Assembly (NCBI GenBank): GCA_018821785.1
Contig: JAHJLI010000043.1
Coordinates: 45,432-109,431 of the forward strand
Source of the DNA: Pseudomonadota bacterium
GTDB taxonomy: Bacteria; Desulfobacterota; Desulfobulbia; Desulfobulbales; Desulfocapsaceae
DNA: 64,000 bases
Reading direction: 5' to 3'
In this document: piece by piece, positions 42,296 to 44,550 of the stretch
Numbering within the stretch: position 1 is the first letter of the stretch
How the letters are laid out: every line of letters starts with the position of its first letter
Made by a program: the position numbers and the translations under genes
Notes under the pieces: model-generated
Database searches by the model: none
What the model was told of the DNA's origin: nothing
What the model saw: the letters and a program-made list of their open reading frames with translations, nothing else

Positions 42296-44550
42296 TAAAT
42301 TTATTTCTTTTAAAAGCAGTCGGTCTATCCCGTGACTCTGGGGATCTACCAGTTCAGTGATGACTTTCTTGTCAATATGGGCAACAATAATATCGCCAAT
42401 CTCTTCAATGACATCCTCAAATATACCAATCCGCTTCATCCCATTGGTTTGATGACGATTATCATCAGTCGGGGTCATGTACTGAATGACATCCACTTTA
42501 TACCGGTGCACCAAAAAGAGTTGCAGAAGAGTCATAAATCGTCTTCTTCGCAGCTCAGTATTATGAATGATTTGGTTGCGGATAAATAGAAACACTTTGT
42601 CCTCGCGGTCACATAAGACGGTGAACACAACCTCGGCGACCACGTTTTCCGAACCGTCGAGAACGACAAGTTCCAGAATGTCGGAACCCGATCTCTGCGG
42701 TCGCAACCGAACCTTAAGTTCTTTGGTAAAGTTGTTTGTTTTTGACCACCTGGACACCCAGCCATCAAGAATTGAAATTGGCGGTTCAATTTGGACCAGG
42801 TGTTGAAATTGAGTAGACCCCTTGCCCATTGCCTTGGTAGTTGCGGTTCTTCCCGAACATGCAGCCAGAGCTCCATCCAGTCTGGGGCCGCCAACCAGAG
42901 TCTGCGGCGTTGTATAGGGAGATTCAAGCAGCCGGAGTTTACGTTGCAACCTCGCCAGGGTGAGCATCCCGTCCTGCTTCAAAGCGGTGGCCAATTCCTC
43001 ACCCGCCACGCCATCTGCCTGATGTCCGCCGTAGGTAATAAAATTAAATACATACCCCAGCTTTCCTATATCACTGGGAAATCTCCGCATCTCCTCATCA
43101 CTCATGCCGGTTGTATCCCAGTTGAACGAAGGTGAGAGATTATAGGCAAGCATTTTGTCCGGATAGACGGCATGGATAGCCTCTGCAAATTCAGCAGCCT
43201 CCTTTAAATTTGCGGTTTTGGTCTCCATCCAGATAATGTCGGCAAATGGTGCAACCGCCAGAGATTTGGCGATGGCGTATGCCATGCCGCCGCGTATCTG
43301 GAAGAAACCTTCAGTCGTCCTGGGCCGATTCCAGTCCCATGAAACATTCGCGCCGATTTCTTTTGCCTTCTGCCTTGCCCTGAAGTGCGATACATGCTTT
43401 GCATACTTCAGCCAATCTTCTACGGTCATAACTGTTTCCTGACCGTCCTCCTTAAGGAGTTTGATTCGGTCGGCGACTGCTTCTGGAAAGGTCTTAATCC
43501 CCGCCTCAGTTTCCCAGGCCTGTACCACAATGGTCATAGCCTCATCGAGCATGTGTTTTATCTCCAGTCTATCGGCTGAAACCTTCCTGGAAATTATCTC
43601 TTCAATTTTTTCATAGATACCTGCCGATTTAAACCAGGAGATAGCAAGACCATAATCGTTATCAGCCAGGACAAATAACAGATGTCCGAGGATATCTTTG
43701 TGTCCGGATTCATAGAACAATCGTTGCAGCGCCAGGGCACAGAATTTATAGAGAGGAACCTTCAGATTCGTGGCACCCAGTATAAAGGCATGATCCCTGC
43801 TGTCGTTATTACTGTCGAGCAGGGTTGCTGCTTCCGCATCGGTACGAGCCACGATAATTCCCGGGACCTGCATTATATCCAACTGAAAACGGGCGGTATT
43901 AAGCCGCTTTATCTGTTCATCCACAGAAACCAGAACCTTGCCACCCTGATGGCCGCATTTTTTTGTTCCCGGTCTCTGGTCTTCAATATGATATCCGGGG
44001 ACGCCCACCTCGACAAAGCGTCGTATCAAGTTGCGGACATGGGCATCGCCGCCATGCCCGGTATCGGCATCGGCAATAATGAAGGGGCGAAAATCATATT
44101 CCGGCGATTTCTTCCTTTCCTCTTCAGTCATGCGGGAGCGAAAAAAATTCTGATTTCTGTCGGCCGTAAGCAGTGCTCTGACAATGGGAGCCGCCTCGTC
44201 AGGAACCTGACTTAAGGGATACGATGCCAAATCTGCACCAGGGTCTTCATTAACAGAACCCTTTGCCGAGGTTGCCCACCCTCCCAGGTAAATCCCCTGG
44301 ATGCCGACTCTTTTCATGGTAACCGCCTGTCCGGGAGAATAGGGTCCGAAGGTGGTAATTGACGTATTATTTTTAAAGCTGTCTCGCAGGAGATTAAAAA
44401 ACCTTCTGCCGCTTCTCTGGCCACAGTATAGTCATTGGCGATGATTCCCTGCTGTTCTGCCACCTGGCGTTCAGAATAAAGTCGTTGAACCCCGTCAAAA
44501 CGGGGCCTGGAGAAGTACTCTTGAAGTTTGCTGATCTGTTGTTCTAACAT
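42287..44550 (-). CDS. aceA: isocitrate lyase, long (ICL2-like) form, split by a -1 frame change
   Basis: The gene cleaves isocitrate to glyoxylate and succinate. Two frames cover it: residues 1-52 from ATG 44550, then the main frame from 44395 to the stop. Joined, the product is about 754 residues, like mycobacterial ICL2 (766). The first frame (FSRPRFDGVQRLYSERQVAE) and the second (SITTFGPYSPGQAV) are adjacent parts of the same family; the catalytic KKCGH and the C-terminal extension are present. The break is a phased U UUU UUA heptamer: a -1 shift there gives the exact length seen in ICL2. Without the shift the first frame stops at 44314. An ATG at 44317 has no good ribosome site. It lies 16 bp downstream of aceB. 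This could be programmed frameshifting, a real mutation, or a homopolymer sequencing error. Confidence 0.8.
44395..44401 (-). other. U UUU UUA slippery heptamer in aceA
   Basis: On the minus strand TTTTTTA occupies codons 50-52 in the phase X XXY YYZ (GGT TTT TTA). After a -1 slip the next codons are AAT CTC CTG, the start of the downstream aceA frame. A purine-rich AGAGAAG lies about 13 nt upstream and could act as an internal Shine-Dalgarno stimulator; no strong downstream hairpin is evident. Confidence 0.55.

Follow-up and report, generated by a model that had tools for sequence, protein, structure and literature searches.

Signals for programmed -1 ribosomal frameshifting of the dnaX type, and of the HIV type with its U UUU UUA, carry a slippery heptamer of the form X XXY YYZ in phase with the reading frame, and in dnaX a Shine-Dalgarno-like element lies ~10 nt upstream of the heptamer. 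A different kind of frame break is described for isocitrate lyase: in Mycobacterium tuberculosis H37Rv a single-nucleotide deletion splits aceA (icl2) into Rv1915/Rv1916, and in other strains the gene is one continuous ORF, as stated in passages of PMC4428469 and PMC5733104. Indel-compensating slippage, as in endosymbionts and mitochondria, forms a third comparison; passages of the review PMC5009743 report bacterial transcription slippage for nine As or Ts, and also E. coli constructs in which A_AAA_AAG was much more shift-prone than U_UUU_UUA.

We examined a window (the whole stretch of DNA analysed, 64,000 nucleotides of contig JAHJLI010000043.1 from a bacterium of the Desulfocapsaceae that seems to be near Desulfopila) in which an ICL2-type aceA gene lies in two ORFs (Table 1). 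The aceA break is an event of an already known kind, as in the ICL2 split of H37Rv, in an unrelated bacterium. The H37Rv gene is, in the passages cited above, likewise split in two ORFs by a single-nucleotide deletion, and here too there are unbroken relatives and a one-base difference in the run at the break. The two cases differ in that the event here is independent, in that the break lies near the N-terminus (codons 50-52) and in a T run, and in that the H37Rv split, according to the same passages, concerns a second ICL gene, whereas a single ICL locus was found in the 5.47 Mb genome here (315 contigs, 5,470,697 bases, 93.99% complete). A DNA search of the own genome together with the genus likewise gave one own copy and no second.

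Table 1. Positions of the features at the aceA locus within the window.
Feature	Position	Strand	Basis
aceA N-terminal piece (ICL2), 78-aa ORF	44550-44314	minus	homology over residues 1-51
T TTT TTA heptamer, in phase for a -1 slip	44401-44395	minus	T6 here, T7 at the homologous site of G007
ICL2-homologous stretch ahead of the first body ATG, in the same frame as the body	44318-44394	minus	homology
Shine-Dalgarno-like AGGCGG, 5 nt upstream of the body ATG	44323-44328	minus	duplex energy
ATGA, stop of the 78-aa ORF overlapping the body's first ATG	44314-44317	minus	ORF reading
aceA body (isocitrate lyase ICL2), 676-aa ORF	44317-42287	minus	TIGR01346 and PF00463
Malate synthase gene, unbroken, directly upstream of aceA	44567-46462	minus	family matches

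The N-terminal ORF begins at an ATG at 44550 that is preceded by AAGGGGTGG (anti-Shine-Dalgarno duplex energy -10.9), and it translates as MLEQQISKLQEYFSRPRFDGVQRLYSERQVAEQQG...EAAEGF/LISCE..., where the slash marks the frame junction. Its residues 3-51 match NCBIfam NF011645 (E 1.4e-5; 24.1 bits, below the cut-off of 562), and beyond residue 51 it continues as an out-of-frame tail; a Pfam search gave no match for this ORF. The body ORF occupies the -1 frame relative to the N-terminal ORF and scores 394.8 bits against TIGR01346 (cut-off 275.9) and 389.6 bits against PF00463 (cut-off 26). Read upstream of its first ATG, the body frame gives FFNLLRDSFKNNTSITTFGPYSPGQAVTM, a sequence conserved in relatives. 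Family match and an ICL2-type length with the C-terminal region place the gene in ICL2; a single uninterrupted frame from the N-terminus is what it lacks. An unbroken homologue listed under the name Desulfopila sp. IMCC35006 shares 82% identity with the body. Its residues 3-748 match the solved ICL2 structure 6edw, and at the junction it has the same residues as the locus in the relative G007.

The two frames meet at GGT TTT TTA A (44403-44394), in which GGT TTT TTA forms codons 50-52 of the 78-aa ORF. The initial annotation had placed the aceA N-terminus and body in different frames and the break on a slippery heptamer in the correct phase, and the ORFs together with homology bear out both points. 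It had also claimed that a -1 slip would restore the protein with no residue gained or lost. This holds at the junction: the spacing from EQQG[x] to TTFGPYSP across the break is 29 residues, counted by eye, and it is likewise 29 in all 99 of the homologues that fit the pattern among the best 120 of 8,000 scored. The other 21 of the 120 missed the spacing pattern, and the 8 of them that we inspected differed by substitutions. The best 120 are 737-794 aa long, with none near 676, and the closest 48 listed have no gap across the break site. After the conserved F51, 42 of these 48 carry Y (24), F (16) or H (2), and the remaining 6 did not fit this residue pattern. The 78-aa query returned 8 proteins, and the out-of-frame tail is absent from all 128 proteins that the 78-aa and body queries returned. 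Judged by homology, the frame break is clear and beyond chance.

A 69-aa metagenomic ICL2 N-terminus, present on two contigs, neither longer than 909 bases, goes out of frame shortly after FAN. We read it as a homologue apparently cut short by a frame break of its own, at another place.

An ICL2 gene was found in 4 of 14 other genomes of the genus (G003, G004, G007 and G010; G004 carries it as two pieces, located at contig ends), and a search of the family gave 8 among 92 other genomes. Partial matches only, of ~90 to 110 residues (E 8e-12 to 1e-6), came from 22 further family genomes; these resemble what methylisocitrate-lyase-like proteins would give. At the junction, the frame is open in all eight relatives' loci that cover it (G003, G004, G007, G010, G015, G017, G053 and G054), and T TTT TTA occurs in none of them. 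G007 reads GGT TTT TTT CGC, with T7 at the same codons. The others read GGC TTT TAT (G010), GGA TTT TAT (G053), CAA TTT CAT (G054), GCC TTT CAT (G003), GCC TTT TAT (G004) and GCC TTC TAT (G015 and G017), and so the one-base run difference is seen against G007 only, the remaining relatives having other codons. The best listed homologue of the body is 86% identical, and with this as the top identity there was no second sequence of the same species among the proteins listed for the body. Proteins of the window itself were likewise absent from the lists for the body and 78-aa queries. A DNA pattern over the site with a variable T run found no match in a search of genome contigs, from which the own and near genomes are possibly absent.

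For the break, the initial annotation had offered a programmed -1 frameshift, a mutation or a sequencing error. The one-base loss, whether mutation or consensus error, is supported; the programmed frameshift is not. If frameshifting were programmed, a -1 ribosomal slip at T TTT TTA would join the N-terminus to the body and regulate isocitrate lyase. The heptamer is indeed an in-phase X XXY YYZ at the frame junction, as in dnaX-type and HIV-type signals, and a -1 slip there would yield the conserved 29-residue spacing. However, this reading is unsupported because all eight relatives' loci are open without T TTT TTA, which is the finding that the initial annotation itself had said would count against it; the alignment with relatives' aceA that it proposed as a check on T6 conservation gave T7 in G007, different codons in the others and the heptamer in none. 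Unlike dnaX and HIV-type signals, the heptamer here, with its split frame, is not conserved in relatives, and no downstream RNA structure better than shuffles was seen, four stretches of 47-112 nt giving z of -0.10, 0.73, 0.93 and 0.92 in a model that leaves out pseudoknots. We also saw by eye no Shine-Dalgarno-like element at the dnaX spacing: a purine-rich AGAAGG directly adjoins the T run rather than lying ~10 nt upstream of the heptamer. A literature search found no report of programmed ribosomal frameshifting of isocitrate lyase. We regard such a mechanism as highly improbable for this gene.

The perfect phase of the heptamer is weak as evidence because it arises by construction: an F codon TTT placed after GGT TTT, as in G007, would make the run an in-phase T7, and when such a run stands before A, dropping one T should by itself leave T TTT TTA in the slip phase. 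Across the portion of the genome that we sampled, removal of overlapping and antisense ORFs took 164 ORFs down to 117 conserved genes without overlap (110,787 aligned bases). These hold T TTT TTT in phase at 13 sites and T TTT TTA at 3, the latter away from any break; before overlap removal the 164 ORFs gave 13 and 5. That the same in-phase heptamer lies within the aligned frame of three other conserved genes is a further point against programmed frameshifting. What looked like programmed frameshifting of a central metabolic gene, a tempting reading, is thereby removed as unsupported. The locus also illustrates a general trap: any in-phase T7 before A that drops a T turns into a perfect-looking -1 heptamer.

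Compared to the indel-compensating slippage of endosymbionts and mitochondria, the break is likewise a homopolymer one-base indel that translation or transcription might in principle bypass (as described in passages of PMC5009743). However, six Ts fall short of the nine As or Ts for which those passages report slippage, and the genome, at 5.47 Mb, is not reduced. Transcriptional slippage at six Ts would be unlikely.

With T6, the gene would give a 78-aa peptide and, at best, the 676-aa body through reinitiation at the ATGA. A duplex energy of -7.0 was obtained for the 20 nt that precede the body ATG; 186 of 1,857 internal in-frame ATGs equal or exceed it in strength, which makes reinitiation at the body ATG possible and unremarkable in strength. 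It could be proposed on this basis that the gene is phase-variable, with T6 and T7 in the population, or is a natural two-part gene in which the reinitiated body and the N-terminal peptide form a two-chain enzyme. The ATGA overlap, with AGGCGG upstream of the ATG, would fit such an arrangement. However, in G007, whose locus is unbroken, AGGCGG and an out-of-frame stop occupy the corresponding position, with ATA for ATG, so these elements need not be split-gene adaptations and seem incidental to the coding sequence, and none of the eight relatives' loci is split at the site. We consider this the least probable of the readings. It is also very doubtful that T6 is real and tolerated, with low-level slippage at T TTT TTA or restart at the ATGA supplying enough isocitrate lyase, and that the homopolymer in the 5' part of this sole glyoxylate-shunt lyase gene would thereby switch it on and off, or set its dose, reversibly in this lineage. 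The body would lack ~78 N-terminal residues, many of them at invariant alignment columns, and as an isocitrate lyase the split gene product would probably be inactive or nearly so. Taken jointly, recoding and a working split gene are improbable.

The initial annotation held that mutation and sequencing error are inseparable from the sequence alone. We agree, since a consensus error would look identical. In the first case, the sequenced lineage would recently have lost one T from the T run, likely by replication slippage rather than through any programmed ribosomal event, breaking the aceA frame at codons 50-52. In the second, aceA would be intact in the cells, and sequencing or assembly would have dropped one T from the homopolymer. 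Selection on the body bears on both. Against G010 the body has dN 0.090 and dS 1.17, and against G007 dN 0.105 and dS 1.78; G010 and G007 differ from each other by dN 0.099, with dS above 1. The aceA body is thus under strong purifying selection without acceleration in the sequenced lineage, and the break is therefore recent, artefactual or tolerated. This is what a consensus error would leave, and several other observations are consistent with one: aceA is the sole ICL locus found in the genome, it adjoins an intact malate synthase gene, the break sits in a homopolymer where G007 carries one T more, and the genome is a many-contig assembly. For a sole ICL without relaxed selection, a local error is as good an explanation as a very recent mutation.

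The frequency of frame breaks elsewhere in the assembly speaks against a consensus error. We compared 749,997 of the 5,470,697 own bases with 1,460,007 of ~5.6 million G007 bases. Once overlapping and antisense ORFs had been taken out of 179 pairs, 121 conserved genes without overlap remained (37,406 aligned aa). Among these aceA was the one frame break, and the reverse comparison gave none in 117 genes. A second candidate (L135, 6777-7495) was rejected, the query being the antisense of a longer opposite-strand ORF (6117-7256). A single break among 121 conserved genes means that indels are not a general problem of the assembly, and a real deletion is therefore slightly favoured over a local consensus error. 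We give even chances to a recent one-T deletion that breaks the ICL2-type aceA and leaves a probably near-inactive split gene, and somewhat less than even chances to a consensus error. We infer that the deletion is genuine in cells, and recent. If it is real, the organism probably lost the glyoxylate shunt recently.

A coding-potential scan for frame switches was set aside as evidence, having failed to detect the aceA break itself. With pieces below 3 kb dropped, it gave 1 switch in 723,900 bases of the own genome (G000) and 3 in 760,000 bases of G007. In the window it called seven, of which the one we inspected, near 52539, corresponds to ordinary neighbouring ORFs.

The malate synthase gene adjoins ICL2 also in G007, G010, G053 and G054, the four relatives examined for it, and the protein here is 78-85% identical to theirs. 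It scores 220.8 bits against TIGR01344 (cut-off 594.5) and matches the barrel domain well; at 631 aa it seems to be a divergent long form. Divergent from the malate synthase-aceA pair lies a gene whose 520-aa product carries an HTH at its N-terminus (PF01381; 46502-48064, plus strand); its position suggests a glyoxylate shunt regulator, possibly RamB-like. Near these glyoxylate genes there is also a 232-aa Y1 transposase gene (PF01797, IS200-like; 48120-48818, minus strand).
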